A DNA stretch of 64,000 bases. It comes from a virus. The translations under genes and the position numbers were made by a program. The DNA lies in the IMG/VR virus record IMGVR_UViG_3300025849_003059, positions 1-64,000 of that record; one strand, 5' to 3'. The notes under the pieces are model-generated. The model saw nothing but the letters and a program-made list of their open reading frames with translations. It was not told the origin of the DNA and made no database searches. Below, piece after piece: positions 30,545 to 51,267 of this stretch; within the stretch, counting starts at the first letter, position 1; the number at the start of each line of letters is the position of its first letter.

Positions 30545-30664
30545 TTAATGATTTTTGTAAATAAAGGGGTCTCTTTTACGAAGCTCTTCTAGTTTCTTTT
30601 TATAAATCTTTTCTTTTCTTCGATTCTCAAAATATAATTTGATTTTTTTTATTATTCCGAACAT
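30545..30664 (-). CDS. Small basic protein closing the sugar operon
   Basis: A 39-residue ORF (MFGIIKKIKLYFENRRK ... L-R-K-R-D-P-F-I-Y-K-N-H) overlapping the end of the upstream gene by 13 bases. It has a short hydrophobic start, then a strongly basic amphipathic helix ending in R-D-P-F-I-Y, a pattern I recall from tiny proteins of marine phages. It fills an otherwise empty 150-base gap. Function unknown. Confidence 0.55.
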   Translation of the reverse strand: MFGIIKKIKLYFENRRKEKIYKKKLEELRKRDPFIYKNH

Positions 30665-35009: not shown

Positions 35010-35937
35010 AATGTTTGTATGTTCTTTTTATTCCTTGTTCGAATCCTAGTTTTGGTAACAACTCATATTTTTCTTGAATTTTGGTTGACATTTTTCTTCT
35101 CATATCACCATTAGGTTTAGTTGTATCCCAATTAATTTTTATTTCCTTACCACTTGCTTTGGCAACAGTTTCAATCATTCTTTTTATTGATATTTCTTCA
35201 CCACTACCTAAGTTAGTAGTTATGTGTAATTTATCTTCATAACATCTTATACATCCTTCTGCTACATCATCTGCATAAATGAAATCTCTTGTAGGTGTTC
35301 CATCTCCCCATGCCTCAATTTCATCAGTTGCCTCATAAATCTTTCTACAAGTTGCACCAATTACAGTTGCACCTTCACCAAAGTTATCATATTCACCAAA
35401 AATATTTGCTGGTCTTACAATTGTCCACTTATCATATCCATGTTGTACTTTATATGCTTCTAAATACAACTCTGGTATTCTTTTACTCCAAGATGGAAAC
35501 CAATCATTTGGTGATGGAAGTGTTTTCCAAACTGTATCTTCTATAAATTCTTCTGCTGGTTCATATACACCAACTGAACTCATGAAAACCAACCAACAAT
35601 TATGTTTATGACAATTTTCAATTATATTAATATTACCTTTAATAGATGGTTCTAAAAAATCTAATGGTTTTTCTTTTGCTCTGATTGGTGAACCTTTAAT
35701 TCCAAATGCATTAATTACACCATCAAACTTATAATATTCAAAGAACACTTCTAATTCTTTTGAATTACGAATATCCATTCTTTCAAAATGAAATTCTGTT
35801 TCTGATGGTAAAAATTTAGAATAGTTTATATCAATTCCAATTACTCTATACCCTCGTCTTATTAAACCATGAGTTAGATATGTACCAACTAACCCACTAC
35901 AACCTGTTACTAATATTGTTCCTAAAAAACTACCCAT
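34993..35937 (-). CDS. GDP-fucose-synthase-like SDR, active-site Tyr apparently replaced
   Basis: A 314-residue extended SDR with G-C-S-G-L-V-G near 12-18, I-V-R-P-A-N-I-F-G, G-D-G-T-P-T-R-D-F-I-Y-A-D-D-V-A-E-G, and a C-terminal D-T-T-K-P-N-G-D-M-R-R-K resembling GDP-L-fucose synthase (T-K-P-N-G-x-x-R-K). The usual YxxxK appears as P-S-W-S-K, with Pro at the Tyr position beside Trp and Phe. Either another residue supplies the proton or the protein has altered chemistry. It overlaps the TPP alpha gene by 16 bases. Substrate unknown. Confidence 0.75.
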   Translation of the reverse strand: MGSFLGTILVTGCSGLVGTYLTHGLIRRGYRVIGIDINYSKFLPSETEFHFERMDIRNSKELEVFFEYYKFDGVINAFGIKGSPIRAKEKPLDFLEPSIKGNINIIENCHKHNCWLVFMSSVGVYEPAEEFIEDTVWKTLPSPNDWFPSWSKRIPELYLEAYKVQHGYDKWTIVRPANIFGEYDNFGEGATVIGATCRKIYEATDEIEAWGDGTPTRDFIYADDVAEGCIRCYEDKLHITTNLGSGEEISIKRMIETVAKASGKEIKINWDTTKPNGDMRRKMSTKIQEKYELLPKLGFEQGIKRTYKHYEKNR

Positions 35938-36560
35938 TTGCCTGTCCCATAATGTGGGAATTTTGATTCATACTTATAATAGATTACATCTTTTGGTATT
36001 TCTCTTTGAATACCACCCCATGTATCTAATGTTGGGGTATTTGTACTTACACCATTATCTTCCACAACAAAGTGAAGTGGTAAATCATAGTTTCTCGCAT
36101 ATTTGTGAACTTCATAGAAGATTCCACTTTCAAATGCCATATCACCTAAAAAAACCCAAACCTTATTTGGACTACCTTGAAGTTTTAAAGCCTTTGCTAC
36201 ACCAAGTGCTATTGGTAAAGTACCAGTTACAATTGCTGATGAATAAAATTTAGAATCTTTATCTACAATTGTGATAGATTTACCATCTAATATTTTTTGT
36301 TTTAATACTGAAGGTTCTACTCCATGTAAAAGTGCATGATAATGTGACCTCCAAGTTGAAAATACCCAATCTTCTATACCAATTTTATTAAATATTTTGA
36401 TAAGTTCACTTTCATTACCATTTGATAAATGAATGGGTCCTTTGATTTCTCCATTTTCCCAATGTGAAATGATATCGTTTTCAAAATCAATTAAATCTTG
36501 TTTTGACCAATTTCCATCAACCCATCTATCTTCGTGATAATCTAAATTTTTAATGTTCAT
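35922..36560 (-). CDS. TPP-dependent enzyme, diphosphate-binding (E1-alpha-like) subunit
   Basis: A 212-residue protein equivalent to the PP domain of E1-alpha or transketolase: H-Y-H-A-L-L-H-G near 69-76, G-T-L-P-I-A-L-G-V-A near 113, and the TPP/Mg signature near 138-172, G-D-M-A-F-E-S-G-I-F-Y-E ... L-P-L-H-F-V-V-E-D-N-G-V-S-T-N-T. The motif starts G-D-M rather than the usual G-D-G. It is shorter than full E1-alpha (~330 residues). Its partner is the Pyr-domain protein at 33469-34017. The pair lies among SDR and RmlC genes, suggesting modification of a nucleotide sugar rather than central metabolism. Overlaps both neighbours. Confidence 0.72.
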   Translation of the reverse strand: MNIKNLDYHEDRWVDGNWSKQDLIDFENDIISHWENGEIKGPIHLSNGNESELIKIFNKIGIEDWVFSTWRSHYHALLHGVEPSVLKQKILDGKSITIVDKDSKFYSSAIVTGTLPIALGVAKALKLQGSPNKVWVFLGDMAFESGIFYEVHKYARNYDLPLHFVVEDNGVSTNTPTLDTWGGIQREIPKDVIYYKYESKFPHYGTGKWVVF

Positions 36561-37134
36561 ATCTGTCTCGTTTTGATAAGATTGGTGATTGTACTGGCCA
36601 ATCTATTTTAAATCGTTTATCGTTAAACACAATGGTTTTCTGTGCGGTTTCATCGTTGTACTCACCTTGGTATGCCATTTTGTAAAAGAACATTGAATTA
36701 TCTTCCATAACAAAATGTCCATTTGCAAACATTGGTGGTATAAGAACTTGTGTACCAGTTTCAGGTGAAAGTACAAATGATTCCCATTTTCCATAAGTTG
36801 TTGAATGGGGTCTAACATCCAATACTACTAAGTAAATTTTACCATGAGGACAACTAACTAATTTCCAAGTTTTCTCATCATAGTGCATTCCTCTAAGAAC
36901 TCCATACTTTGATTTTGAAAATCTATCGTGTTTAAATTGTAATCCTTTGTTTCTTTCATTTGCAGGTAATAACCTATCATAATAATCTGAATGATATGTT
37001 GTAGATATTGAACCTCTGAACTCGTAATAAGTAGATGGTTGTACTACCTTCACTTCATTGAGCACTGAACCATTGTAATAATGGAAATCATTCCAATCTC
37101 TTTCTTTATAAAATATACTTCTATTTAATGCCAT
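36550..37134 (-). CDS. RmlC-type dTDP-4-keto-sugar 3,5-epimerase-like protein
   Basis: A 194-residue cupin. The segment F-K-H-D-R-F-S-K-S-K-Y-G-V-L-R-G-M-H-Y-D (about 67-86) matches the RmlC signature with R-G-x-H-Y holding the catalytic His. Y-L-V-V-L-D-V-R-P-H-S-T-T-Y-G-K-W and L-I-P-P-M-F-A-N-G-H-F-V follow as in the family. RmlC inverts C3 and C5 of dTDP-4-keto-6-deoxyglucose on the way to rhamnose; related enzymes act on other keto-sugars. It overlaps the SDR gene upstream and the TPP gene downstream, in the core of the sugar-nucleotide section. Confidence 0.82.
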   Translation of the reverse strand: MALNRSIFYKERDWNDFHYYNGSVLNEVKVVQPSTYYEFRGSISTTYHSDYYDRLLPANERNKGLQFKHDRFSKSKYGVLRGMHYDEKTWKLVSCPHGKIYLVVLDVRPHSTTYGKWESFVLSPETGTQVLIPPMFANGHFVMEDNSMFFYKMAYQGEYNDETAQKTIVFNDKRFKIDWPVQSPILSKRDRYEH

Positions 37135-38086
37135 AACCTAGTGGAAAATCATTTCTATATTTAGAACTTAAATCTGATATTAGAATTGTGTAAGTTTTTA
37201 TTAACTCTTCTATACCCTTTTCTAATGTATATTGAGGTTTCCATGCATTAGATTCTAATTTTTGATTAGATACTACATAATCTCTTTTATCAGGGTCCTC
37301 GTAATTATCGTTGTAGAAAATTTGAAAAGATGGTATCTGTTCTTGTATTGCTTCACACAATTGTTGTTTAGTAAGATTTGCTTCTGATAACCCTACATTG
37401 TACACTTCACCACTATGTAGATAATATTCTTCAATCATACTTCTAAATACCAAAGCAACATCTCTGATGTGAATGAAGTTTCTTACAAATTTCTTTTCAA
37501 ATAATACTATGGATTTATCTGTTAGGGCTTTGTAAACAAATTCGTTTACTAATAAATCCATTCTCATTCTTGGTGAAGTTCCAAAAACAGTAGCAAGACG
37601 TAAAGAGATTCCTCCTATCCCAAGAACCTCTTTTTCTGCCTCAACTTTGGTTTTTCCATAGTGGGAAATCGGGTTAAGTGGACTTTCTTCAGTACACACC
37701 CCATTCTCTCCTATCCCATATCCACTATTTGTGTTCGGATAAACCACCTTTTTATCATTTTCTTTTGCAATATCACAAACAAACTTAACGTGCTCGTAAT
37801 TTATTTGTGTTGCTAATTCTTTATCTCTTTCACAAGCAGGAAATCCTACGATTGCTGCAAGTGGAATAATTACATCATTTTGTAATACTAATTCTTTTAG
37901 TAATTCTTTATCTCTTACATCACCATTAATGAATTTAAAAGTTTCATAGTGTGAAAAGTTTATAACAGATGTTTGATTATACATCATGTTATCTAATATT
38001 GTAACTTGTTTTGAATCTTGTAATAATACTTCTGTAATTACAGAACCTAAGTAACCTGCACCACCAGTAATTAGTATTTTTGTCAT
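37121..38086 (-). CDS. NAD-dependent sugar epimerase/dehydratase (extended SDR)
   Basis: A 321-residue extended SDR with a canonical G-G-A-G-Y-L-G (8-14), the catalytic Y-G-K-T-K (YxxxK) near 143, R-L-A-T-V-F-G and N-F-I-H-I-R-D-V-A. It resembles the NAD-dependent epimerase/dehydratase family acting on UDP-, GDP- or dTDP-sugars. It overlaps the first radical-SAM gene (38083) by four bases and the RmlC-like gene by 14, so it links the radical-SAM and sugar-nucleotide sections. Specific substrate unknown. Confidence 0.82.
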   Translation of the reverse strand: MTKILITGGAGYLGSVITEVLLQDSKQVTILDNMMYNQTSVINFSHYETFKFINGDVRDKELLKELVLQNDVIIPLAAIVGFPACERDKELATQINYEHVKFVCDIAKENDKKVVYPNTNSGYGIGENGVCTEESPLNPISHYGKTKVEAEKEVLGIGGISLRLATVFGTSPRMRMDLLVNEFVYKALTDKSIVLFEKKFVRNFIHIRDVALVFRSMIEEYYLHSGEVYNVGLSEANLTKQQLCEAIQEQIPSFQIFYNDNYEDPDKRDYVVSNQKLESNAWKPQYTLEKGIEELIKTYTILISDLSSKYRNDFPLGYGIK

Positions 38087-39285
38087 AAAACTGTATTTTT
38101 AATAATCAATTCATTTAATTCGCTAAATGTATTTGAAAACGATTGATTTCTTGAGTTATCTAAAATTTTATTTTTTAAAATAAAGTTATCCCACGAATTT
38201 CTATTAAAATCTTTTGAATTCATGCTATTCAAAACACCGAACATACTATCTTTAACATGAGGTGGAATATATTCCTTATATAAATATATATTAAATTTTT
38301 TATTTATCGTATTTTTTACAGCATTTGGTAAGTTTGATGGTGCATAAAAATCAGGCCATGATACATCAATAAAGTATGGATTCATTTTCATGTCCAAACA
38401 CCAATCTACTAATTCATCTAAATAAAATATACTTAAATTTGTAACTGTAACTGCAACGTCAAAATCAATTTTATCTGATTTGTATTTTAACCAGTTTTCA
38501 ATATTAGATTTTACTTGATTCCAATCTCCATGGTGTCTTATATAATTAAACCTATCTTTAGTAGCATCAATAGAGAATGAAATAACTACTCTTTTAAATT
38601 GTTTAAGTATATCAATATATTCTTCTCTAAATATTGTACCATTTGTATTAAAATGTAGTTCTTGATTTTTAGAATATCCAAGTTCTATCGATTTTTTTAG
38701 AGTTTCCCATTGTTTTTTTATCAACATTGGTTCTCCACCGTACATATCAATGTGTGTTATCTCGGATAGGTTCTCTTCAATCTCATTCCAAAAAATTGAA
38801 GAATCATCATATGATTTATAATAAGTTTTTACCCATTCTTTATAAACATTATCATCAGAATGACCACCACTATCATCATGTAGTATTCTATGTTCATCAA
38901 ACCATTTAATTGATGCACCAACTGAACACATTCTACAAGCAAGATTACAAGTATTACCAAGATTTAGTTCTAAAAATTTTAATTTAATAGAATCATCTAT
39001 ATGAAATCGTTCATTATCATTTATTCTTTTACTTTTATTTGAATTTTTTTCATCTACCCAACATCGTTTACACCCATCGTGTTTAATCCCATTTTCCAAA
39101 TCCTCAATAAGTTGTTTCCTATCAGGACTGTGCATCATTTCTTCAAAAGTGTGTGTATCGGTTTTTATGATATTTCCTTTTGTATCTTTGAATGGTTTAG
39201 ATTCATCGTAATAACAACATGGGGTGATATAACCACCATTTGCTACTCGTAATCCACTATAAGAATGTACACATCTTAAATCCAT
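38083..39285 (-). CDS. Radical SAM protein with N-terminal twitch/SPASM-like Cys cluster, no. 6 of 6
   Basis: A 400-residue radical-SAM enzyme. The core cluster motif is C113-x3-C117-x2-C120 (C-N-L-A-C-R-M-C), followed by the SAM-binding G-G-E-P in M-Y-G-G-E-P-M-L. The N-terminal part (T-P-C-C near 21-24 and G-C-K-R-C near 71-75) supplies extra Cys for an auxiliary iron-sulphur cluster, as in twitch/SPASM proteins, but before the core rather than after. It is separated from the other five by a GT7 gene, a cytidylyltransferase and a small gene. Radical-SAM/SPASM proteins oxidise or epimerise peptides or sugars; the substrate here is unknown. Confidence 0.85.
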   Translation of the reverse strand: MDLRCVHSYSGLRVANGGYITPCCYYDESKPFKDTKGNIIKTDTHTFEEMMHSPDRKQLIEDLENGIKHDGCKRCWVDEKNSNKSKRINDNERFHIDDSIKLKFLELNLGNTCNLACRMCSVGASIKWFDEHRILHDDSGGHSDDNVYKEWVKTYYKSYDDSSIFWNEIEENLSEITHIDMYGGEPMLIKKQWETLKKSIELGYSKNQELHFNTNGTIFREEYIDILKQFKRVVISFSIDATKDRFNYIRHHGDWNQVKSNIENWLKYKSDKIDFDVAVTVTNLSIFYLDELVDWCLDMKMNPYFIDVSWPDFYAPSNLPNAVKNTINKKFNIYLYKEYIPPHVKDSMFGVLNSMNSKDFNRNSWDNFILKNKILDNSRNQSFSNTFSELNELIIKNTVL

Positions 39286-39617
39286 TATGATTCTATAATT
39301 TTAAAATTATCAAATATTTCAATATATTCTTTTAATTTTTTTGAAAGTATTTTATTTAAATCAATTCCATCTAAAATTGATTTTCTTTTATTTTTTACAA
39401 CAATCAAAAATGTATTTGAATTATCATTTAACATTTGGGATGTTAGTCGATGTGTTAATGTTTTTTTATGGTTTGGATATTTTTCTTTGAATGATTTTTT
39501 ATCAGTAATTGTATTTTTTAGTATATTTGATAAATTTTCTTTTTGATAATTAAATGGTACATATCCATTTGGTGTTAAAAAATCATACACAACGTAAAAC
39601 TTTGTAAAATCTCTCAT
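39285..39617 (-). CDS. Small unknown protein in the sugar operon
   Basis: A 110-residue, Lys/Asn-rich protein sharing one base with the radical-SAM gene after it and four with the GT7 gene before it. The N-terminus (F-Y-V-V-Y-D-F-L-T-P-N-G-Y-V-P-F-N-Y) is aromatic, and the middle has F-L-I-V-V-K-N-K-R-K-S. No family recognised. Tight coupling to both neighbours suggests it belongs to the same pathway. Confidence 0.5.
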   Translation of the reverse strand: MRDFTKFYVVYDFLTPNGYVPFNYQKENLSNILKNTITDKKSFKEKYPNHKKTLTHRLTSQMLNDNSNTFLIVVKNKRKSILDGIDLNKILSKKLKEYIEIFDNFKIIES

Positions 39618-41038
39618 AATTTTACATTTACCATCTTTGCTTTTGGTGATATTTCTTCAATACTAACTAATTCATACTTTAAAGAATTCATACCATCGGA
39701 TTTATAATCCCAATCACCTTGTTGCATTTGTCTTATATATCTTCTTTCGTTTCTTGCGGTTGTTTCTCCCTTTTTCCACTTACCATCAATTAATCCTTCA
39801 TCTTCATGTTCTAAACAAAACATTCTACCAGGTACTCTGTGTGGTACTGTTGTGTATGGGATGTTAATATCTTCTTTTATATATTCACAGTTATTTATTT
39901 TACCTTCCACTTCATCAATTAAATCAATTGCTTTACCTTTTTTAAAATTCATGTGAAATACCAATCCATCATCTGTCGGTTTTTTCGAAAGATTTTCTAC
40001 TTCTTCTTTTGATAGTGGTCTATCCCACATCTTTACATCTGCTATATCTCCTTTAAACCATTTAGATACATCATTATCTTCAACTGATGTTGTTGTTCCT
40101 AAATAATATGGAGTATTTCCATATCTCTTTAAATGTCCTTCAAAATATTGAGGTGATTTAGTACCAGTACCCCATCTAGCATCAGATTCTTTTCCATTCA
40201 TATATAAATGAACTTTACCATCATCTACAACTAAAGTAACCCATGCCCATAATCCTTCGTAGCGTTTCATCCATTGATATAAATGATTTCCTTTATTGTT
40301 CCAAAGTTGAGCTGTGTACGCTCTTGAGTTATTATAAGATAATCCCCAATCATATCCTGGTCGTCTGAATATGGGGTATTCTACAAATCTCCTATCTTCA
40401 TCACCAATCAAGTAAATAGGAACTTTATCTTCTTGTTGTTGTGCTCGTACTAAAACAGAAACAGTATGTTCTCTTGTAGTAACATTTCTAAGTTTTCTTG
40501 ATGTTGGTATTTCTACATAAGATGAATTACCATCAAATCTTAAAAATTCCATATCTTTACCATCAAAATCCATGTAAGTATCATCTGCATAACCTTCTAA
40601 TACACATCTCCAAAACAAATCATCATCTTCCATACCCCAATCCCAATAATCATTAGAGTATCCATTAGTATTCATTACTTGCTCTTTTGAAAATAAAATT
40701 GCTCCACCAAAATATTCTTCATATTTTAGTTCATAGTTCATTTGTGAAATTTGAGTTGCAATATGTCTTGGTTTTTCAGTAGGGTAGGAATAATCACATC
40801 CTTCTTCTGGTACCATATCGATATCATGCCAAACAATATAATCACAACCATCCTTGAATGCTTGTTCTGCAGCAATATTTTTCATTGCACCTCTGTTAAA
40901 TAACTTATCATCTGTTTGGTGACCAAAATACATACAATAGTCGATACCCCTTTCTTCAAGAAATTTACCAATTCTTGGTACAAACTCCTTTAGATGGGCT
41001 TCTCTGTTTCTATATGGTACACAAACTCCTAGTTTCAT
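39614..41038 (-). CDS. GT7 beta-1,4-galactosyltransferase-like enzyme with inserted LamG-like domain, copy 1
   Basis: The start is the ATG at 41038, overlapping the previous stop as ATGA; a longer reading to 41101 is unlikely. The 474-residue product opens with the GT7 N-part (V-P-Y-R-N-R-E-A-H-L; F-N-R-G-A-M-K-N; D-I-D-M-V-P as DxD metal motif; F-G-G-A-I-L-F; W-D-W-G-M-E-D-D-D-L). About 225 residues of LamG/concanavalin-like sequence follow (W-A-W-V-T-L-V-V-D-D-G-K-V-H-L-Y-M-N-G). The GT7 C-part then resumes (R-M-F-C-L-E-H ... D-G-M-N-S-L-K-Y-E-L), matching animal beta-4-GalT R-M-I-R-H ... D-G-L-N-S-L. The insertion thus lies inside the catalytic domain. It may bind the acceptor glycan. Confidence 0.82.
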   Translation of the reverse strand: MKLGVCVPYRNREAHLKEFVPRIGKFLEERGIDYCMYFGHQTDDKLFNRGAMKNIAAEQAFKDGCDYIVWHDIDMVPEEGCDYSYPTEKPRHIATQISQMNYELKYEEYFGGAILFSKEQVMNTNGYSNDYWDWGMEDDDLFWRCVLEGYADDTYMDFDGKDMEFLRFDGNSSYVEIPTSRKLRNVTTREHTVSVLVRAQQQEDKVPIYLIGDEDRRFVEYPIFRRPGYDWGLSYNNSRAYTAQLWNNKGNHLYQWMKRYEGLWAWVTLVVDDGKVHLYMNGKESDARWGTGTKSPQYFEGHLKRYGNTPYYLGTTTSVEDNDVSKWFKGDIADVKMWDRPLSKEEVENLSKKPTDDGLVFHMNFKKGKAIDLIDEVEGKINNCEYIKEDINIPYTTVPHRVPGRMFCLEHEDEGLIDGKWKKGETTARNERRYIRQMQQGDWDYKSDGMNSLKYELVSIEEISPKAKMVNVKL

Positions 41039-41445
41039 ATTGAATCTGCAATTGCTTGTTTGAATTTTGTTGTACTCCATCCATGAGAACGGTCTATCCA
41101 ATGAATAAGAGTACCAATTTCTTTTCCTGTGTAATCTTTATCTACATAATCATCTCCTAAGAATCTTACATCAGGATTTATACTTTTAATTAAAAATAAA
41201 AGTTCTTCTTCTGTATTATAGGTAAGTATTGTGTGATACCATGTAAACTGTTTTAACATTTCCCTTCTTTCATCTACCGAAAGAATTGGTTTTTTCTTTT
41301 CAGGTCTTTCAATAGTTGGGTCATCATGTAATAGTATAAATAATTTTTCACAATTATTTTCTATTTCTTGAAACATTTTTAGATAACCTGGATGTAAAAC
41401 ATCGAAGTTACCACAAATGATTCCTATTTCTGGTGTTTCTTTCAT
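41035..41445 (-). CDS. Cytidylyltransferase-like nucleotidyltransferase (TagD-type)
   Basis: A 136-residue protein with the nucleotidylyltransferase pattern G-N-F-D-V-L-H-P-G-Y near 12-21 and a C-terminal R-S-H-G-W-S-T-T-K-F-K, equivalent to the R-T-x-G-I-S-T-T of glycerol-3-phosphate cytidylyltransferases. The second His of HxGH is replaced by Tyr (HPGY). Such enzymes make CDP-glycerol, ADP-heptose-like or related activated units, so the glycan may contain an alditol phosphate. It overlaps the radical-SAM gene before it by four bases and the GT7 gene after it by four. Confidence 0.78.
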   Translation of the reverse strand: MKETPEIGIICGNFDVLHPGYLKMFQEIENNCEKLFILLHDDPTIERPEKKKPILSVDERREMLKQFTWYHTILTYNTEEELLFLIKSINPDVRFLGDDYVDKDYTGKEIGTLIHWIDRSHGWSTTKFKQAIADSI

Positions 41446-42704
41446 AATATAGGATTTAATGATTGATATAATTCAGGAAATATATCTTTCCATTTTTCTT
41501 TTCTAAATCTATCTACTCTTTCAGTAGTATCAATAAACGTTTCTCGTTCACCATTGTAATCTGCATTATAATATCTACCATAAACATCCTCATAAAACTC
41601 ATCTGATAATAATCCTTTAATAGAATCCAATTTTTCTTGTCTATCTTTTTTTGGAATGATATTTGCTGATTGGTATTCGGGTGCATGAACGTGATTTGAA
41701 ATTACTCTCCTAATCAAACCACTTCCATCTAAGTTGAATATACCACGTTTTACTAAATACTGAGTAAGTTCTTCCATATAAAGAAAATTAAAAGAACTTA
41801 ATGTTTGTGTAATAGTATAGTAAAAATTATGGTCATTATATTGAGTAATAAATTTCTTTATATTATCTATTGTTAATTTAAAGTTTGCATTTTTTCTAAT
41901 ATAATCATTTCTATCACCAAAATCATCTACTGATATTGAAATACCAACAAATTGAAAATGTTTTAATTTTTCTAATGCTGGTTTTATCTTTTCAAAATCA
42001 TAATTAGCATTTGTGATATAAAATATTTTCATTCTACTTGCTAATCCATCTTCAATTAATCTATCCAATAACTTAAAGTGTTTTGGAACTAAAAATGGTT
42101 CTCCACCACTAATATGTAATTGGTCTATCATTGGAGAATGTGATATTAGTGCATCATAAAAAGTTTCATCTTCTACCCAATCATAGTTAGTATATTTTTT
42201 TTCTTGTAACTCATCATAATTACTTGGAAAATTTACCTCATCTTTCAATTTCATATAATCAGTAATCCAACTCGTTGATGATTCTGCATTACAACTTCTA
42301 CATTTTAAATTACAATAGTTACCTAATCTAATTTCTACATTTCGTAAATCAATTGAAATAGTTCCATCTTCTTTTGTGGATTTATCAACATCAGTCATAT
42401 AAAATGAATCTTTCTGTCTTTTACTTTTACCACCTGCTAATTCTACATCATGACAAGTTTTACACGCTGGTGGAACTTCACCATTTACCATTTGCTTTCT
42501 GATTTCTTTAAATGAATCAGAATTTACAATTGCTGGAATTCCTTCACGAATGTTTATTTTTTCATACCCACCATCAGATAAAATATTTGATGCAGCAGAT
42601 TGGCCATGTGCGTGATTAGATACACAACAAACAGAACAAACTCCATGTGGATGAACACTAATGTGTTTCCAAGGTAAATCACATAAAAATCTTGTTTCTT
42701 CCAT
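41442..42704 (-). CDS. Radical SAM protein with N-terminal twitch-like Cys cluster, no. 5
   Basis: A 420-residue protein with core C131-x3-C135-x2-C138 (C-N-L-K-C-R-S-C) and H-I-S-G-G-E-P-F-L. The N-terminus (C-D-L-P-W-K-H-I-S-V-H-P-H-G-V-C-S-V-C-C, 8-27, then C-K-T-C at 81-84) is the L-P-W...C-C type shared with the next gene, probably holding an auxiliary cluster. It overlaps neighbours by one and four bases. The role is presumably an oxidative or rearrangement step on a peptide- or sugar-linked substrate. Confidence 0.86.
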   Translation of the reverse strand: MEETRFLCDLPWKHISVHPHGVCSVCCVSNHAHGQSAASNILSDGGYEKINIREGIPAIVNSDSFKEIRKQMVNGEVPPACKTCHDVELAGGKSKRQKDSFYMTDVDKSTKEDGTISIDLRNVEIRLGNYCNLKCRSCNAESSTSWITDYMKLKDEVNFPSNYDELQEKKYTNYDWVEDETFYDALISHSPMIDQLHISGGEPFLVPKHFKLLDRLIEDGLASRMKIFYITNANYDFEKIKPALEKLKHFQFVGISISVDDFGDRNDYIRKNANFKLTIDNIKKFITQYNDHNFYYTITQTLSSFNFLYMEELTQYLVKRGIFNLDGSGLIRRVISNHVHAPEYQSANIIPKKDRQEKLDSIKGLLSDEFYEDVYGRYYNADYNGERETFIDTTERVDRFRKEKWKDIFPELYQSLNPIL

Positions 42705-44008
42705 TAGTAAAGTTTATTCATTGATAACCCTTTATCATGTGGAATGGCGTTGTACCATTCTGCATACTCTGGGTTTATGTCTACAAATCTAAATTTTTCT
42801 TCTCTACCATCATCCAATAATTCTGTTGTATATTTTAATGCTTTTTCAACTTGGTCTTGTGTTTGTGCCAAGGGTTCATCTAAGAAATTAAAAATACTTT
42901 CATATTTAGGTCTTAATTCATTTGCATTTTCATCATCTAATGATTTTAAATGTCTTATATATCTTTTCTTAACTTCTTGTTTTAATGAATCTGGTAAAAT
43001 ATTGATATGATAGTGATGAGGATTTGTTAATACATTGTTAAGATGGATATTAAAATGAGGTACACCCAAACTTTTCATATGTTCAATAAAATCTGGTATC
43101 TGTAATACGTTAAATATGTTAGTTGTACATGATACATGAAAATTTATGTTTGCATCTAAACATTTTTTTATATTATCTTCAATAACATTCCACTTTGTAC
43201 CTTTACGAGAATATTCTGCACTGTCACCATATCCATCTATTGATGCAAATATTGTTACATTACCATAATCTTGTTCTATAAATGGTTTCCACAATTCTAA
43301 ATTATCATATTGTTTAAATTTAAGATATCCTAAATTTGTATTATATCGTAATCTTAAATTTGTATTTCCTACTTCAACAAGTTTTTGTAATATGTAATAA
43401 TGTTCCTCCATTAAAAGCGGTTCACCTCCTGCAAAATATATTTCTTCTACACTACGAACAAATTCATCTAAGTAAAGGTTTATGTCTTTTTTAGAATAAT
43501 CATTTATATTAATAATTGCCTTTGGTAATGGAGAACCCCCATATAGTTTTACTTCATCCTCATACCATTTAGAAGATAAAAATGAACCACACATTCTACA
43601 CTTCATATTACATAGATTTGAGAATCTAAAATCCCAATAAAGTAATTTGAAATCATCATTATGACCATCTTCAGAAGTGTTATCTGTTAATGTTGGAATA
43701 TGTTTCTCAAACCAACGATTTGAAGAGGTTCTCGTTGAATCTAATCCATTTTCTTCTTGTTGATAACACTTTCTACAACTATTGTGTTTCTCTCCACTCA
43801 GCATATCTTTACGAATGGATTTCATTGAATCATTGTTCCATATTTCTTCTAAAGTATTATCTTTTAGATTTCCAACTTCTTCTCTCCAATCAGTAAGACA
43901 ACAAGGATACACATTACCATTAGGCCATGTATTTAAATGTATCCAAGGTAATACACAAAACGATTTAGATACTTTATCTCCAGGATTTTCTAATTTCTGA
44001 TTATCCAT
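42704..44008 (-). CDS. Radical SAM protein with N-terminal twitch-like Cys cluster, no. 4
   Basis: A 434-residue protein with core C133-x3-C137-x2-C140 (C-N-M-K-C-R-M-C) and Y-F-A-G-G-E-P-L-L. The N-terminal C-V-L-P-W-I-H-L-N-T-W-P-N-G-N-V-Y-P-C-C (18-37) and C-R-K-C (78-81) form the L-P-W/C-C type auxiliary region. Asn/Ile-rich central parts resemble the downstream paralogue. It overlaps neighbours by one and eight bases. This L-P-W type resembles database proteins named twitch-domain radical SAM; no substrate is established. Confidence 0.86.
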   Translation of the reverse strand: MDNQKLENPGDKVSKSFCVLPWIHLNTWPNGNVYPCCLTDWREEVGNLKDNTLEEIWNNDSMKSIRKDMLSGEKHNSCRKCYQQEENGLDSTRTSSNRWFEKHIPTLTDNTSEDGHNDDFKLLYWDFRFSNLCNMKCRMCGSFLSSKWYEDEVKLYGGSPLPKAIININDYSKKDINLYLDEFVRSVEEIYFAGGEPLLMEEHYYILQKLVEVGNTNLRLRYNTNLGYLKFKQYDNLELWKPFIEQDYGNVTIFASIDGYGDSAEYSRKGTKWNVIEDNIKKCLDANINFHVSCTTNIFNVLQIPDFIEHMKSLGVPHFNIHLNNVLTNPHHYHINILPDSLKQEVKKRYIRHLKSLDDENANELRPKYESIFNFLDEPLAQTQDQVEKALKYTTELLDDGREEKFRFVDINPEYAEWYNAIPHDKGLSMNKLY

Positions 44009-45371
44009 TATCTTCTACCTTTTCAATTGTTTTTAACGTTTTAAACCAATCTATAAATTCTGTTGGCATATATTCATCTATTGGCATTTTTCTTCTTACT
44101 GCATATTGTTCTACGAAGTTTTTGAAATCATGGTGTTTATTTTCAAACGTATCGGTATCTTCATATGAAGTATCTACTTTTCTTAAATATTCTATAACTC
44201 GTTTAAATTGATTTTCCTCCCAACCAATCATATATTCTTTGTTTCTATTTAATGCTTCTTCAATTTTATCTGCCAATTGATTTTTTACTTCTTGTGAAAT
44301 AATATTAATTGATTGAAATGATGGGAATCTTAGAATATTTACAGACATAAAAAATTCTTCTTTATTTACAAACTTTTTTCTCCAATCTATAATTTTATCC
44401 ATAAACTCAGCTATTGACCAAATAGATAGTGCTGATATTGTCATCATTATATGAACTGAACGAATGTTTTCAGAATCATGTAATCTAAACATATTTTTTT
44501 CCCATGTATCCCACTCAAATCCATCTCGTACAAACTCTTGGTTTTTACCAATACATTCTGCTGAGGTGTAAACATCAAACGATTTAAAGTTTTTACCAGC
44601 ATCTATTAAGGTACTTATTCTAGCATCATCCATTATAAGATTTGAATTTATTGAAAAGTCAAATGTTTCATTATCACATATTTCAAGTAATTGCCAAAAT
44701 GAAGGGGAACGCAATGGTTCTCCTCCAGATACGCGTAATTCATGTAATCCATGTCTAATCTCTTTAAACCATTCATAAAATTTTGAAATATATGGATTTC
44801 TTTGATTTTTAGAACCATACGGCATTGCATGATGACCAGTATTTTTGAAGGTATGTCCACCTGATGTTTTCATGTTTTGATATGGGCCTTTTGAAGTAAT
44901 ATCAGTATTCCACGTTGATGAAAATTCAGCGTTACAATATGAACAAGCAAGATTACATAAATTATCAAATGCCAATTCAACTGTTTTTGGAATTACATTA
45001 GCATCCCAAGGCATATTTTTAATTGCTAATATTTCTTCTTTGGTGTATCTTTGTGTTTGGTAAACCCTATCTGAAAATATTCCACTTTCTTTTGTTGCAG
45101 CATCTTCTACTCTCCAACAATAAGAACATTCTGCTGGTCTTTCTCCTTCTAACATTTTTTTACGTTGTTCTTTTTTGAACTGTGTATTGTGTAGTGCAGA
45201 TTTATCTTTATCTAATTCGGGTCTTGGGATTGAATGTGCGAGTGGATGATGACAGGATGCGGTTCTACCATTACCTAACCATATCGATACATTATACCAT
45301 TTTGCTGCACAAAAGGATTTAGATATTGAATCTATAACATTTTTAGTTTCTACTAAATGTGAGGTTGACAT
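44001..45371 (-). CDS. Radical SAM protein with CHHP-type N-terminal region, no. 3
   Basis: A 456-residue protein with core C139-x3-C143-x2-C146 (C-N-L-A-C-S-Y-C) and R-V-S-G-G-E-P-L-R. Its N-terminus differs from the L-P-W type: C-A-A-K-W ... S-C-H-H-P-L-A-H-S-I-P ... A-L-H-N-T-Q-F-K-K-E-Q-R-K-K-M-L-E-G-E-R-P-A-E-C-S-Y-C-W. The Cys/His set (C21, C40, H41, H42, C82, C85) is conserved in the next two genes and probably binds an auxiliary cluster or metal. It overlaps both neighbours. Confidence 0.86.
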   Translation of the reverse strand: MSTSHLVETKNVIDSISKSFCAAKWYNVSIWLGNGRTASCHHPLAHSIPRPELDKDKSALHNTQFKKEQRKKMLEGERPAECSYCWRVEDAATKESGIFSDRVYQTQRYTKEEILAIKNMPWDANVIPKTVELAFDNLCNLACSYCNAEFSSTWNTDITSKGPYQNMKTSGGHTFKNTGHHAMPYGSKNQRNPYISKFYEWFKEIRHGLHELRVSGGEPLRSPSFWQLLEICDNETFDFSINSNLIMDDARISTLIDAGKNFKSFDVYTSAECIGKNQEFVRDGFEWDTWEKNMFRLHDSENIRSVHIMMTISALSIWSIAEFMDKIIDWRKKFVNKEEFFMSVNILRFPSFQSINIISQEVKNQLADKIEEALNRNKEYMIGWEENQFKRVIEYLRKVDTSYEDTDTFENKHHDFKNFVEQYAVRRKMPIDEYMPTEFIDWFKTLKTIEKVEDNG

Positions 45372-46723
45372 AACTTATAAAATTTAGTTAATTGTGGAAA
45401 AATTTCTTCAAAATTTAATTTTCTTCTTTTATCATATTCTTCTGTAAATAAATAGAAATCTTTTCTATTTCTATTAAGTTTATCAGATTCTGGTTTTATA
45501 TTCATATATTCTACAAGTCTTTCTAATTGATTGATTTGTTCTTCTGTTAAAAATGTATCAGATTCCCAATTAGAATTTTTACTTGAGTTAATAAGATTAT
45601 TAATGTTTTTTTGAAATGTACTTTTTGTTTCATCATCAAGATTTTGGATTGATAAAAACTCTGGATATCTTAAATAGTTTGTCATAAACTGAACTTTATT
45701 GAAATCTACATCATTAATATATTTTGAACGTAATTTTAAAATATATCTAATAAAATCATCATAACTTACAACACTTGTTAAATTTACAGTAGTCATTATT
45801 GAAAATAAAACATTTTTAACATTAGATAAAACCTTTTCACAGTTTTTTTCCCATTTTTCTTGAATAGTTCCGAATCTAATGTATTCATTATGTTTACCAG
45901 TTGCTTCTCCACTTGTAAATAATTGTAATTCTTTTACTTTACCATCTAACTTATTTAGTTTATCAATTAATTTATCAATCAACATATCAGGTATCATAAG
46001 ATTCGTGTTTATTGAAAAAATTAAATTTGGATTTGGATTTTCAATTAACTCATCCATTACTTTCCAAGTATCTTTTGATAAAAGTGGCTCACCACCTGTA
46101 ATTCTTAATGTGTGTAACTTTGGATAAAGTTCTGGCCACCATTTCCAAAAGGCTTCAACATAAGGATTGTGTTCTGATTTTTTATATGGTATTTTTAAAT
46201 TATCTTTAAAATAATTTATATCATTATATTTTGTAGATGTAGGATACCCTCCAAATTTTTCCACCTCTTCCATCCATGTGGATGATATATCAGGTGAACA
46301 ATATGCACATTTCATATTACAAGTACTTGAAAACGAAACTTCCAAATAACTTGGTTCAATATCTTGTGTTCGTTTTTCTAATATCTCATCTTTCTTTACT
46401 TGAGAAAATGAGTTTGCTGATTTGTATATTCTATCTGAAATATACTCTTTACCCAAATCTTCTATCTTCCAACAATACTCACATTCAGAAGGACGTTGAC
46501 CTTTCAACATCTGTTTCATCTGCCTTTTCTTATACTTTGTATTATGTAAGGCTTTATGGTTCTTTTCTAACTCTCTTAGAGGTATTTTGTGAGGGGTTGG
46601 GTGATGACACGAATGGTTATAACCATTTTGTAGGTAAAGTGTTAATTGAGACCACTTTGCTAAACAGAAACTAGTTGAAACTTCATCGAGTTGGTTTCTA
46701 ATATCATTGTAAAAATTCTTCAT
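45353..46723 (-). CDS. Radical SAM protein with CHHP-type N-terminal region, no. 2
   Basis: A 456-residue paralogue of the genes on both sides. Core C135-x3-C139-x2-C142 (C-N-M-K-C-A-Y-C), R-I-T-G-G-E-P-L-L, and the N-terminal S-C-H-H-P-T-P-H-K-I-P-L-R-E-L-E ... A-L-H-N-T ... E-C-E-Y-C-W block. More Lys/Asn-rich than its neighbours. Start overlaps the upstream gene by 20 bases and the end overlaps the next by 19, so the three are probably translated together and may act as a complex or in sequence. Confidence 0.86.
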   Translation of the reverse strand: MKNFYNDIRNQLDEVSTSFCLAKWSQLTLYLQNGYNHSCHHPTPHKIPLRELEKNHKALHNTKYKKRQMKQMLKGQRPSECEYCWKIEDLGKEYISDRIYKSANSFSQVKKDEILEKRTQDIEPSYLEVSFSSTCNMKCAYCSPDISSTWMEEVEKFGGYPTSTKYNDINYFKDNLKIPYKKSEHNPYVEAFWKWWPELYPKLHTLRITGGEPLLSKDTWKVMDELIENPNPNLIFSINTNLMIPDMLIDKLIDKLNKLDGKVKELQLFTSGEATGKHNEYIRFGTIQEKWEKNCEKVLSNVKNVLFSIMTTVNLTSVVSYDDFIRYILKLRSKYINDVDFNKVQFMTNYLRYPEFLSIQNLDDETKSTFQKNINNLINSSKNSNWESDTFLTEEQINQLERLVEYMNIKPESDKLNRNRKDFYLFTEEYDKRRKLNFEEIFPQLTKFYKLCQPHI

Positions 46724-48137
46724 TTAGTTTTTTACATTGATTAAAAAAGTCAACTAACTCTGGAAATGTTTCGTGGAAATTAGTTCCTCTACGTTTATCG
46801 TGTGCAGAAATAAAATTGTAAAAATCTCTACGAGTCCTCTTAAGTGTTTCTTCATCCACTTCTTCGTCAAACCAATCAATAATTCTTTTTATTTTTCCAA
46901 TTTCAATTTGAGTAAATCCTAAGTAATGGTCTTTCCAATCTTCAATTTCCCATAAAGGTTTAACCGTATGCATTGTTTCTGCTTGAGTTACAAACTCTTC
47001 TAATCTTTCTTTAAACTCTCTTGGTAGTATTTTAACAGTTTGATGGTGTGGGTATCTTAAATACGCAGAATCTAATGTTAGGGCAGTTACCCAATATCTA
47101 TCTGGTGAGTTGTGTAGTGTTTTCATTTCAAAAACCCACTCTAAAAGTTCACCATAACGTAAAATTGATAGTGCGTTGAAGGTTGACATTATAGCTATTG
47201 ATAATTTTGTTGTTTTTGAAAGAAGTTCATCAACTCTTTTTTGCCAAATAGGGAAATCTAATCCATTTCGTGCATATTCTGCTTGTTCTCCAAAAGTATC
47301 TACTGATGTAAATACTGTAAGTTCTTTTATTCTTCCACTTTCTTCTAATTCAATCATTTTTGCTAAGAACTTATCGTATATTTTATCAGGTATACCTAAG
47401 TTTGTGTTTATAGAAAGTTTTAAATTAGTGTTTGGATTATCTGTTGTAAGAATGTGTTCTACTACCCTCCAAAAATCAGGTGACATTGTTGGTTCACCAC
47501 CCGTTATTCTAAAAGTATCCATATCTTTATACAAATCTGGCCACCACTCCCAAAATGCATCTACATATGGGTTTGCTTCAGAATGTTTATATGGCATTTT
47601 ACCATTTTCTTGTAACCATTCTAAGTTTCCAAAGTTATCTGATGTTGGGTATGCACCATGTTGTTTTATTTCCTCTACCCACTTTGATGAATATTGAGGA
47701 CCACAATAAGAACACTTAAAATTACAAGCATTTGAGAAGGCAACTTCAACATATTTTGGATTGTAGTTTTCTCTCCAACCCAATTCTTTGATTTTATCAA
47801 AATGTGGTTTAGACCAAGGTTCAAATGATTTATAGTGTCTATCAGAAAACTCAGGTCCACTATCTTCAACCTTCCAACAATAATCACACTCTGGTGGTCT
47901 TTCGTTGTTAAGCATCATTTTTCTTTGCTTCTTCTTGTGTCTTGTGTTGTGAAGTGCGGTTGGGTTTCTTTTTAATTCTCTTAATGGAATTTTATGTGGA
48001 ATGGGGTGATGACACGAGTGTGTTTCACCTGTTTGAAGATGTATTGTAACTTGAGTCCATTTTGCTAAACAAAATCCACAACCAACATCATCTAGTTGTT
48101 CTCTAAAATCATATAACTGTCCTCTATGGTCTATCAT
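46704..48137 (-). CDS. Radical SAM protein with CHHP-type N-terminal region, no. 1
   Basis: A 477-residue protein, first of the radical-SAM series. Core C138-x3-C142-x2-C145 (C-N-F-K-C-S-Y-C), R-I-T-G-G-E-P-T-M, and the N-terminal block C-L-A-K-W-T-Q-V-T-I-H-L ... S-C-H-H-P (41-45) ... A-L-H-N-T ... E-C-D-Y-C-W (83-88). The C-terminus (Y-N-F-I-S-A-H-D-K-R-R-G-T-N-F) matches ends of the two following paralogues. It overlaps the GT7 gene upstream by four bases. Conservation of all cluster residues indicates an active enzyme. Confidence 0.87.
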   Translation of the reverse strand: MIDHRGQLYDFREQLDDVGCGFCLAKWTQVTIHLQTGETHSCHHPIPHKIPLRELKRNPTALHNTRHKKKQRKMMLNNERPPECDYCWKVEDSGPEFSDRHYKSFEPWSKPHFDKIKELGWRENYNPKYVEVAFSNACNFKCSYCGPQYSSKWVEEIKQHGAYPTSDNFGNLEWLQENGKMPYKHSEANPYVDAFWEWWPDLYKDMDTFRITGGEPTMSPDFWRVVEHILTTDNPNTNLKLSINTNLGIPDKIYDKFLAKMIELEESGRIKELTVFTSVDTFGEQAEYARNGLDFPIWQKRVDELLSKTTKLSIAIMSTFNALSILRYGELLEWVFEMKTLHNSPDRYWVTALTLDSAYLRYPHHQTVKILPREFKERLEEFVTQAETMHTVKPLWEIEDWKDHYLGFTQIEIGKIKRIIDWFDEEVDEETLKRTRRDFYNFISAHDKRRGTNFHETFPELVDFFNQCKKLNEEFLQ

Positions 48138-49582
48138 AAACTGATTTTTATCATATTAACTAGTTTCTTTTTTGATACTTTTTTTTCTTTAAATCTTAGA
48201 GTATTTAAACCTTCAATTTTATAATTATCAAAATCTTCTCTAACTTCATTATAAAATCTAATTTGATTTTTTCTAGTATCAGAATGTATCCACTTATTTC
48301 CAATAGATGAATTTGATTTATGTTTTAAAGATTTAAATCTACTTTCTCTTCTATGTGGTTTTGGTAGATATGATTTAAAAGATTCTATACCCTTGTATAA
48401 ATATGTATTGTATAATTTTATGTTATTCTGCTGAGCTATATCAATACATTCTTCTTTTTTAGAAAATTCTGGTAATATCTGACATAATAAAAATTCTGAT
48501 GATATGAAGTTATCAAAATTTCTTATTTTGGGTGTTGTTGGATTTTCGTATATTGATTTAACTTCGTTTGAATCTAATCCAACATCATATATTTCAACTA
48601 CACCAACTTTTCCAATTAAAAATTCTTTGTTTGTTTTTTTACTATTAGGTGCACCTACAAATATCTCATCAGTTGATAATTGTAAAATTTCAGTATCCAT
48701 TTCTATTTTTTCAATCAATTCACCATTGACGTAAAATGAAATAAATTTATTATCTTCATATGTCATTGTTAGATGTGTCCATGCTTCACCCATTATATCA
48801 GAAGATATTGAATATGCTTTTTTATTCAAATCATAAGTCTGACAAAAGTATCTACGAAAGGAATTGTAAAATAATCCAATGTTGTAGCCTGGTATAGATA
48901 ATATTGGGAATTCATCATAATCTTTATTTTTACTTAATTTTATTTCTTCTGGTTTTACTAAAACTGAAATAGTGAAATCATCTTCCAATAAAATAGAATC
49001 TTTTGTTGAAATTTTTATATAACTTCTATCACCATCTAATTTGAATGAATGAATTTCACTTACATTGGAATTACCAAACACTTCTTTGTCAATATCCAAT
49101 CCTGCTTGAATACATCTTATCAATAAATCATCATCTTCGAATCCCCATCCCCAATATTCATTGGAGAATCCATTGATAGTTTTAAAATCTTCTTTGGTAA
49201 ACATTGTTACTCCACCAAAGTAATCAAAGAATGTTGTTTCGTAATCGTGTTCTTGTAAATGAGTTGCTAAATGTAAAGGTTTATCTGAATATGAGTAATC
49301 TACATCTTCTGGTAACATATCAACATCATGAAATACAAAATAATCACACCCTTTATCAACGGCATACTTATATCCTGCATTCAGAAGTTTACCTCTATTA
49401 AAAGGTTTATCATCTGTCTGTTCAACGATGAAGATTTCATAATCAATATCCTTAATATAATCTTTCATATGAGATAAGAACCTTTTCAGTTGTTGTTCTC
49501 TATCTCTATATGGAACTATTATACCAAGTTTATGAGTTATCTTCTTCTCCTTGAGTCTCTTTGTTCTCTTGGATTCTCTCAC
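48134..49582 (-). CDS. GT7 galactosyltransferase-like enzyme with inserted LamG-like domain, copy 2
   Basis: Up to 482 residues. GT7 motifs: I-V-P-Y-R-D-R-E, F-N-R-G-K-L-L-N-A-G (compare animal FNRAKLLNVG), D-V-D-M-L-P (DxD), F-G-G-V-T-M-F, W-G-W-G-F-E-D-D-D-L. A LamG-like insertion follows (W-T-H-L-T-M-T-Y-E-D ... F-Y-V-N-G-E-L-I), then the GT7 end (E-G-L-N-T-L-R-F). The start is uncertain. A GTG at 49582 gives an 18-residue basic extension lacking in both paralogues and overlaps the previous gene by 53 bases. An AAGGAG lies six bases before an ATA at 49540 that would start the protein where the paralogues start. Confidence 0.8.
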   Translation of the reverse strand: MRESKRTKRLKEKKITHKLGIIVPYRDREQQLKRFLSHMKDYIKDIDYEIFIVEQTDDKPFNRGKLLNAGYKYAVDKGCDYFVFHDVDMLPEDVDYSYSDKPLHLATHLQEHDYETTFFDYFGGVTMFTKEDFKTINGFSNEYWGWGFEDDDLLIRCIQAGLDIDKEVFGNSNVSEIHSFKLDGDRSYIKISTKDSILLEDDFTISVLVKPEEIKLSKNKDYDEFPILSIPGYNIGLFYNSFRRYFCQTYDLNKKAYSISSDIMGEAWTHLTMTYEDNKFISFYVNGELIEKIEMDTEILQLSTDEIFVGAPNSKKTNKEFLIGKVGVVEIYDVGLDSNEVKSIYENPTTPKIRNFDNFISSEFLLCQILPEFSKKEECIDIAQQNNIKLYNTYLYKGIESFKSYLPKPHRRESRFKSLKHKSNSSIGNKWIHSDTRKNQIRFYNEVREDFDNYKIEGLNTLRFKEKKVSKKKLVNMIKISL

Positions 49583-49809: not shown

Positions 49810-51267
49810 TTAAGTTATTATTCTTACTAATTTATATTCACTTCTATCTTGGATATCCATTATTTTATATTTTAATGTAGATAATCCAATTTTTTTATAA
49901 TCAAGTTCATCTGTTAACACTTCGTTAAAGAAAATATCAGCATTCTCTTCAATATCAGGGTCATATTCATAATATTTTTCAATAATATTTTCATCATCAT
50001 CGTGTACTAATGACTTGTACTTACCATCCAATCTAACTGGTATGGAAATTTCATCTGTTAGGTATATTTCTTCATTTGATAAATTAAAATTACTACCTTC
50101 AATATTTAAATGATTGTAATTCTTACCTGAATCTAATACCACCCTATTTTTATATAACTTATCAAAGTTAAAAAAGTTACTCAATACAATACCATATTTA
50201 TTTTTTAATAAATCAAGGTTAGATTTTCCATTATAATATAGGTCAGATACGATATCATCATTTATTTTACTAGAAATACAAAAGATATCTGCTAGTTTAA
50301 TTTCAGAATTTGTATCTGATATTTTAATTGAATGATTTTTATAATCGTATAATTTAAAATCTTTTGGTAAGTTACCACTAACTTTAATATTATTAAGATA
50401 TAATGATATTTTATCATCATCAAAAGAAAAAACTGCATGATTCCATGTGTTTTTATAATAAGTTTGACTTATCTCTTGGTGTTTTTCTTTTGTATCCCAT
50501 ATTTGACCTATTAAGTATTTACCATCTGATAAAAATAGACCAGAATCACATCCTTCAAACGCAAATAAGTTTTTAGGATAATCACCTCCATTATCTTTAA
50601 ACCATAATGATATTGTAAACTGTTTTTCTATATCGTTTTGGGTTAATTTATTTATAACACCATAGAATCTAGTATCTTTTTCGATTTCAACTAAATTTAG
50701 TGTTTGTTTTTTTGGATTATTGCTCAAATCAACATCTTCAATTCTATATGGTAGGATATCATCATTATTATATTTTGAATATGTTTTGTTTAAATCATAA
50801 TATACTTCAAGATATGCATCACTTTTTTCTAATCTATATAATAAATCTAAATCACTAAAACCATAACCATAGTATTCTGGTGAGTAACCATTTGAATTTT
50901 CAAAATCTTCTCTATTAATTAACAAAACACCACCCATATATTGAGGATAGGGTAGTTCACCATTATGAGCCTCAACATCATTTGCTAAATGAGTTGGTTC
51001 ATCAACATAAGAATAATCACATTCATCTGTCATTGGTAACATATCAATATCGTGGAAACAAAAATAGTTATATTCTGCATCTATTTCCTTAACAACAGCA
51101 TTACATAGTTTTCCATAATTAAATGGTCTATCATCTGCTTGTTCAGCTATAAAAATATCATAATCAATTCCTTTACCATCTAAGAATTCATGCATATGAG
51201 GAACAAATGTATTTAAATGTTCTTCTCTATCTCTATATGGAACGATTATTGCTAATTTATCACTCAT
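49810..51267 (-). CDS. GT7 galactosyltransferase-like enzyme with inserted LamG-like domain, copy 3
   Basis: A 485-residue paralogue of the two other GT7 genes: I-V-P-Y-R-D-R-E-E-H-L, F-N-Y-G-K-L-C-N, D-I-D-M-L-P (DxD) and G-G-V-L-L-I. The acceptor/catalytic block reads Y-G-Y-G-F-S-D-L-D-L instead of W-G-W-G-x-E-D-D-D, so two acidic positions are lost though one Asp stays. The LamG-like insert (W-N-H-A-V-F-S-F-D-D-D-K-I-S-L-Y-L-N-N) and the C-terminal I-G-L-S-T-L-K-Y-K-I end are present. It may be a specialised or weakened enzyme. It overlaps the upstream GT2-like gene by four bases. Confidence 0.78.
   Translation of the reverse strand: MSDKLAIIVPYRDREEHLNTFVPHMHEFLDGKGIDYDIFIAEQADDRPFNYGKLCNAVVKEIDAEYNYFCFHDIDMLPMTDECDYSYVDEPTHLANDVEAHNGELPYPQYMGGVLLINREDFENSNGYSPEYYGYGFSDLDLLYRLEKSDAYLEVYYDLNKTYSKYNNDDILPYRIEDVDLSNNPKKQTLNLVEIEKDTRFYGVINKLTQNDIEKQFTISLWFKDNGGDYPKNLFAFEGCDSGLFLSDGKYLIGQIWDTKEKHQEISQTYYKNTWNHAVFSFDDDKISLYLNNIKVSGNLPKDFKLYDYKNHSIKISDTNSEIKLADIFCISSKINDDIVSDLYYNGKSNLDLLKNKYGIVLSNFFNFDKLYKNRVVLDSGKNYNHLNIEGSNFNLSNEEIYLTDEISIPVRLDGKYKSLVHDDDENIIEKYYEYDPDIEENADIFFNEVLTDELDYKKIGLSTLKYKIMDIQDRSEYKLVRIIT

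Follow-up and report, generated by a model that had tools for sequence, protein, structure and literature searches.

The DNA examined here, referred to below as the window, is the stretch of 64,000 nucleotides covering positions 1 to 64,000 of the IMG/VR virus record IMGVR_UViG_3300025849_003059, which has 83,472 bases in total. Between positions 38083 and 48137 it carries six genes for radical S-adenosylmethionine (SAM) enzymes, all on the minus strand, and the T4-type major head, portal and terminase proteins encoded in the window identify the virus as a T4-type phage. The six very probably form a dedicated set of distinct enzymes that act together. The family of these enzymes was known before; what appears to have been undescribed so far is their ordered array, its orthologue groups and the sharing of these groups with Bdellovibrionota.

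All six open reading frames (ORFs) are complete, with no internal stop and no frameshift, as the first-pass annotation of this DNA had claimed. Its concern that the key cysteines might be frameshift artefacts proved unfounded, since the ORFs are intact and the ligands are conserved in relatives. Five of the genes (41442 to 48137) are strictly consecutive and overlap by 1-20 bases, an arrangement also read correctly at first pass. The sixth (38083) is split from the other five by a cytidylyltransferase-like gene, a gene for a GT7 glycosyltransferase with a LamG domain (GT7-LamG) and a 110-amino-acid ORF. Scans for promoters and terminators gave counts below shuffle expectation and were hence uninformative.

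Each of the six proteins matches the NCBIfam model NF033640 (radical SAM, N-terminal twitch domain) over its full length; the scores range from 283 to 401 bits, where the model's cut-off is 170 bits. PF04055 is likewise present in all six; for 46704 it scores 28.3 alone, against a Pfam cut-off of 29.5, and passes the cut-off when combined. In an alignment of the six, the CX3CX2C and GGEP motifs are invariant, as are four N-terminal cysteines (C18, C37, C78 and C81 in the numbering of 42704). The N-terminal cysteine region had been described as being of the twitch/SPASM type, and the suggested profile searches bore this out: Pfam SPASM matches above threshold at this region in three of the proteins (38083, 41442 and 42704), and the region also matches the twitch domain of BtrN, as described below.

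Viral contigs were scanned and yielded at least 559 relatives, of which the best 80 loci, all aquatic and most of them chosen by similarity to the group designated C below, were retained as a first sample. Almost all of these loci have several members of the family in tandem. In a FastTree tree of 363 viral relatives, the comparison with database homologues that had been proposed at first pass, each of the six window proteins belongs to a clade of its own, and most of these clades have roughly one member in each locus. These were designated A (60 sequences from 59 loci), a (5 sequences from 5 loci, support 1.0; also present in loci L166, L167 and L169), B (50 sequences from 49 loci, support 0.998), C (77 from 76), D (12 from 12) and E (52 from 48). 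Judged by their sequences, the six genes are old, long-diverged orthologue groups. Recent tandem duplication is ruled out by the pairwise identities of 21-42% among the six and by the separate orthologue clades. The genes had earlier been divided into a C-H-H-P type (44001, 45353, 46704) and a C-C type (38083, 41442, 42704, with L-P-W in the last two). This split is exact in the alignment, but it does not delimit two subfamilies, each set being composed of three orthologue groups.

The order of the genes is conserved. Most loci in the main lineage of relatives read A-B-C-E-F, and the lineage of the window reads A-a-B-C-D-E; the latter order is also found in L166, L167 and L169, contiguous save for one inserted gene. 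Adjacent pairs included B>C (51), A>B (41), C>E (34) and E>F (31), and 200 of 203 adjacent radical-SAM pairs lie on one strand. Chance co-location in one odd contig is ruled out by relatives with the same order from other metagenomes. In the first sample, 67 of 68 whole viral records hold 3-21 family members, the exception being a 19-kb fragment. Since that sample was mostly selected by similarity to group C, a second was drawn with a different subfamily as lead query, and here 77 of 80 aquatic loci had two or more members. Both samples were retrieved through the NF033640-type family, so that they measure clustering among carriers and not frequency among all phages. Within these bounds, they contradict the outcome that had been named as fatal to the idea of a multi-enzyme system, namely homologues that occur singly and unlinked in most phages. 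Close relatives are almost absent from the INPHARED collection, in which group C is matched by no more than two Vibrio phages; distant relatives occur in KVP40-type phages, and the Vibrio natriegens phages nt-1 and QD01 carry distant ones as well. A scan with the single protein 38083 as query found six loci only, and one with a protein of Vibrio phage K566 found no matches.

A second recurrent type of array was observed in loci L180-L250. It is built around the module f2-f26-f24-D-G-f16, which combines NF033640-type proteins with other radical-SAM families (f16, f24 and at times the B12-binding f19) and with the methyltransferase-like family f26. Parts of this module recur in bacterial loci, for example L110, L115, L118 and L119.

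Selection on the six genes is purifying. Against the near relative L007, the ratio of nonsynonymous to synonymous substitution rates (dN/dS) was 0.09 for A, 0.11 for a, 0.08 for B and 0.10 for D; C stood at 0.25 and E at 0.45. Of the 363 viral relatives, 362 retain the core motif and 357 the pattern of N-terminal cysteines. Intact ORFs, conserved ligands and purifying dN/dS together rule out decayed or frameshifted copies. Neighbouring enzymes of the array can be one polypeptide: in three phages a single uninterrupted frame of 751-869 amino acids encodes C fused to E (L032:9863-12115, L045:9806-12412 and L048:9839-12430), which suggests that C and E work together.

The order of domains within these proteins is unusual. 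The auxiliary-cluster domain lies at residues 5-85, ahead of the core, and the canonical C-terminal SPASM/twitch arrangement is not seen. A profile of group C matches BtrN in the PDB (E = 3e-5), with profile positions 19-93 aligned to the C-terminal twitch domain of that enzyme; the twitch domain thus appears to be permuted in group C. The AlphaFold model of 42704 (group C) has a mean confidence (pLDDT) of 91.6. A Foldseek search with it found no whole-fold match in the PDB (TM to query at most 0.38); the best partial matches included SkfB at the top, a maturase of ribosomally synthesised and post-translationally modified peptides (RiPPs), together with BlsE, viperin and anSME. Full-length fold matches were to viral proteins only, a KVP40 protein among them.

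Relatives also occur in cellular genomes. A scan of bacterial genomes found 141, mostly in Bdellovibrionota; 42 of 144 genomes drawn from the Halobacteriovorax phylum have a member above the cut-off, many of them several, and one searched Bdellovibrionota genome had as many as 26 matches. The cellular members fall within clades A, B, C, D, E and F. In L144 (Bacteriovoracaceae) a single stretch reads B F D C E. A B. A and adjoins Obg- and Lgt-like genes, and in L112 the array lies beside genes read from the sequence as those of ATP synthase. No T4-type terminase was found in the genomes behind L144, L112 and L113. It should be noted that some contigs of metagenome-assembled genomes in the cellular set, such as L091, look like phage. 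On the evidence of these assignments, the same orthologue groups are clustered in viral arrays and in Bdellovibrionota chromosomes. Our literature search found no account of many N-terminal-twitch radical-SAM genes in Bdellovibrionota (L144, L112, L113, L115, L138 and others).

Because distinct, long-separated enzymes are kept side by side, the original proposal, that they catalyse successive steps or act on parallel substrates, points in the right direction. The six genes lie together as one unit among the structural genes of a T4-like phage; in L167, E is followed almost directly by genes read from the sequence as tail-sheath- and tail-tube-like. To judge from the conserved ligands, each enzyme would contain a [4Fe-4S] site that cleaves SAM and an additional cluster bound by the N-terminal cysteines. 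We propose that each most likely performs a different radical reaction (dehydrogenation, epimerisation, deoxygenation or a change of a C-C bond) on sugar residues, either in nucleotide sugars or in a growing glycan. The neighbouring short-chain dehydrogenase/reductase (SDR) proteins, the RmlC-type epimerase, the thiamine pyrophosphate (TPP) enzyme and the cytidylyltransferase would supply unusual sugars, the chain would be built by the GT7-LamG and GT-B-like transferases, and the glycan, once complete, would be attached either to the fibres of the phage or to the surface of its host. We infer that the substrate is a sugar, that the enzymes act on one product, and where that product goes; a glycan is the substrate that we favour, and we put this forward tentatively.

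It is the gene neighbourhood that points to a glycan. The neighbours named in the first-pass annotation are indeed present in the window: three GT7-LamG proteins, three SDRs, a TPP enzyme (as a split pair) and an S74 fibre, to which an RmlC-type epimerase can be added (Table 1). Glycosyltransferase families lie within 5 kb of the array in 77 of 81 viral multi-copy loci, and the f4 family, which has two members in the window, occurs in 55 of 81 loci. In the main relative lineage the array is preceded by fibre genes (f12/f9) and by families f6, f5 and f2. Family f5 matches glycogenin (E = 5.5e-4), f6 does so marginally, and f2 gave one GT2 match below threshold. Carbamoyltransferase and SGNH-like proteins are also frequent near viral arrays. 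Another family, f14 (L033:15043-16092), is strongly conserved; it follows directly after group F and is present in 28 loci with 56% mean column identity. It has no Pfam or significant PDB match, and neither its profile nor that of f2 produced a useful match when searched against the PDB.

Several observations weigh against a glycan. The assignment of f2 and f6 as glycosyltransferases is weakly supported, we know of no enzyme of the NF033640 family with a known substrate, and the fold leaves the substrate undecided because the nearest solved folds mix the peptide maturase SkfB with anSME and BlsE. The main evidence against it is the scarcity of glycosyltransferases at the bacterial clusters. 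None is recognised beside the Bdellovibrionota chromosomal clusters L144, L112 and L089, and the phage glycosyltransferase families are found at only 8 of 43 cellular multi-copy loci, a count tempered by the use of profiles built on phage genes; L138, with a carbamoyltransferase and sugar genes, is an exception among the bacterial loci. The earlier suggestion of a phage-specified glycan is favoured by the phage neighbourhoods; the bacterial clusters mostly lack recognised glycosyltransferase neighbours. A broader proposal is that the array is a widespread radical assembly line, a fixed order of five or six enzymes that carries out consecutive radical steps on one substrate, common to aquatic T4-like phages and Bdellovibrionota, with a novel modified glycan or fibre protein as its product. 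We regard this as conceivable but less likely than not.

SPASM/twitch radical SAM enzymes are mostly known as modifiers of peptides and proteins, and the array could instead act on several residues of a protein, most plausibly one of the virion such as a tail fibre, giving thioether, epimerised or cross-linked side chains, and on a surface protein in Bdellovibrionota. We hold this to be less likely than a glycan, but a serious rival: SkfB is the best Foldseek match and anSME is among the top ones, fibre genes adjoin the array both in the window and in the main relative lineage, and the bacterial clusters lack recognised glycosyltransferases. Modification of a protein accords poorly, however, with glycosyltransferases as almost constant neighbours in phages, and with an N-terminal domain closest to that of BtrN, a small-molecule enzyme that dehydrogenates an aminocyclitol. 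No recognisable RiPP precursor was seen at first pass, and no conserved small precursor-like ORF was found beside the arrays across loci or in both lineages; a precursor encoded further away, or a substrate that is a large protein, would have escaped this comparison.

Glycosylation of DNA is known from T4-type phages, and the enzymes might make a small molecule or modify a nucleotide, DNA or RNA, as in a viperin-like nucleotide or a sugar-bearing hypermodification of DNA. Viperin is among the fold matches, and there are weak matches to the viperin family NF038283; these are far below threshold (best score 35 bits, cut-off 180 bits). The array moreover lies in the structural region with sugar-nucleotide genes, away from genes of replication and nucleotide metabolism, and we consider this explanation improbable. 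Least credible is the view that there is no single pathway and that these are loose, exchangeable auxiliary genes boosting host metabolism, as proposed for Campylobacter phages (PMC2853527): copy number and group membership do differ between phages, and other radical-SAM families (f16, f19, f24) are mixed into some arrays, but about one copy per locus, a conserved order on one strand, the C-E fusion and near-perfect retention of ligands would not be expected of such a set.

Phages with many radical-SAM genes have been reported before, and the remark in the first-pass annotation that no such system was described is too strong: up to 12 such genes were reported in 2010, 2017 and 2020, and an NCBI model exists for the family. 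Campylobacter phages CP220 and CPt10 have 11-12 radical-SAM genes, termed highly unusual by the authors, who suggested that they boost host metabolism (PMC2853527; 2010). They resemble the window in having one five-gene radical-SAM cluster, with an amidinotransferase, and CP220 also has genes of the sugar-nucleotide transferase fold. However, the CP220 radical-SAM proteins lie outside NF033640 (best score 31 bits, core only), and homology of the two arrays is ruled out on this ground. Closer by description, by which alone they are likened here, are the T4-like ocean genome TARA_ERS488813_N000010, with 12 radical-SAM genes (PMC5332604; 2017), and the pelagimyophages, in which radical-SAM cassettes lie in a host-recognition region rich in glycosyltransferase and fibre genes (PMC7029224; 2020). 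Both are T4-like marine phages with many such genes, mentioned in passing without orthologue groups or order, and none of the three papers offers a mechanism. Our literature search, from whose coverage most subscription journals were absent, found no functional account of multi-radical-SAM phage arrays. Model NF033640, which all six proteins match, covers single proteins without ordered arrays or a function. KVP40-type Vibrio phages have three distant relatives that align over nearly the full model, but these score under the family cut-off and lack the A-B-C-D-E arrangement.

With these results, the unexplained multi-radical-SAM phages noted since 2010 become a testable system, with defined orthologue groups, a core order of A-B-C followed by D or E/F, fusions that mark partners, and bacterial counterparts. 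If the substrate is a glycan, the pathway would be an unusually radical-rich one for a carbohydrate, with consequences for our view of the ways in which marine phages mask their surfaces or redirect them to new targets; if it is a protein, virions would be heavily modified by radical chemistry. Under either reading, the arrays represent a large reservoir of uncharacterised radical chemistry.

Table 1. Radical-SAM genes and neighbouring features in the window, with the matches on which each assignment is based.
Feature	Coordinates	Strand	Evidence
Large fibre protein, S74 chaperone end	57558..63491	-	PF13884 (Peptidase_S74)
Methyltransferase-like	52130..52912	-	PF13578
GT2-like protein	51264..52142	-	PF13704, 25.1 bits, slightly under cut-off
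GT7 glycosyltransferase with LamG domain	49810..51267	-	PF13733, PF02709, PF13385
GT7 glycosyltransferase with LamG domain	48134..49582	-	PF13733, PF02709, PF13385
Radical SAM group A, CHHP type	46704..48137	-	NF033640, 350 bits
Radical SAM group a, CHHP type, sister of A	45353..46723	-	NF033640, 347 bits
Radical SAM group B, CHHP type	44001..45371	-	NF033640, 283 bits
Radical SAM group C, CC + LPW type	42704..44008	-	NF033640, 401 bits
Radical SAM group D, CC + LPW type	41442..42704	-	NF033640, 316 bits
Cytidylyltransferase-like, RfaE-II/TagD type, between D and E	41035..41445	-	PF01467; TIGR02199 and TIGR01518 below cut-off
GT7 glycosyltransferase with LamG domain	39614..41101	-	PF13733, PF02709, PF13385
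Fast-evolving ORF, 110 amino acids	39285..39617	-	In 4 loci; dN/dS 0.82 against L007
Radical SAM group E, CC type	38083..39285	-	NF033640, 291 bits
SDR epimerase/dehydratase	37121..38086	-	PF01370
RmlC-type sugar 3,5-epimerase	36550..37134	-	PF00908
TPP enzyme, E1-type subunit	35922..36560	-	PF00676
SDR epimerase	34993..35937	-	PF01370
SDR epimerase	34017..35009	-	PF01370
Partner TPP subunit (transketolase pyrimidine-binding)	33469..34017	-	PF02779, slightly under cut-off
f4 family, GT-B-like glycosyltransferase	32058..33479	-	AlphaFold pLDDT 77.5; weak Foldseek matches to GT-B enzymes
f4 family, GT-B-like glycosyltransferase	30652..32058	-	Same family as 32058

Some further features of the record were seen. 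A DUF6071/GDSL-like protein of the array-associated family f10 is encoded among the head genes (14159-15013), and a 1225-amino-acid protein with an N-terminal cytidyltransferase-like domain (26823-30500) adjoins the terminase genes. The part of the record beyond the window (bases 64001-83472) was analysed as one stretch, labelled L163; it encodes a sulfotransferase (PF03567; L163:9264-9836), a GDSL-like protein (L163:4671-5450) and two further f4-type transferases (L163:5443-6618 and L163:7590-8759). The product of 54115-57555 has a sub-threshold match to the BACON domain, which, together with a G+C content of 31% and A-rich start regions, might weakly hint at a host among the Bacteroidota.

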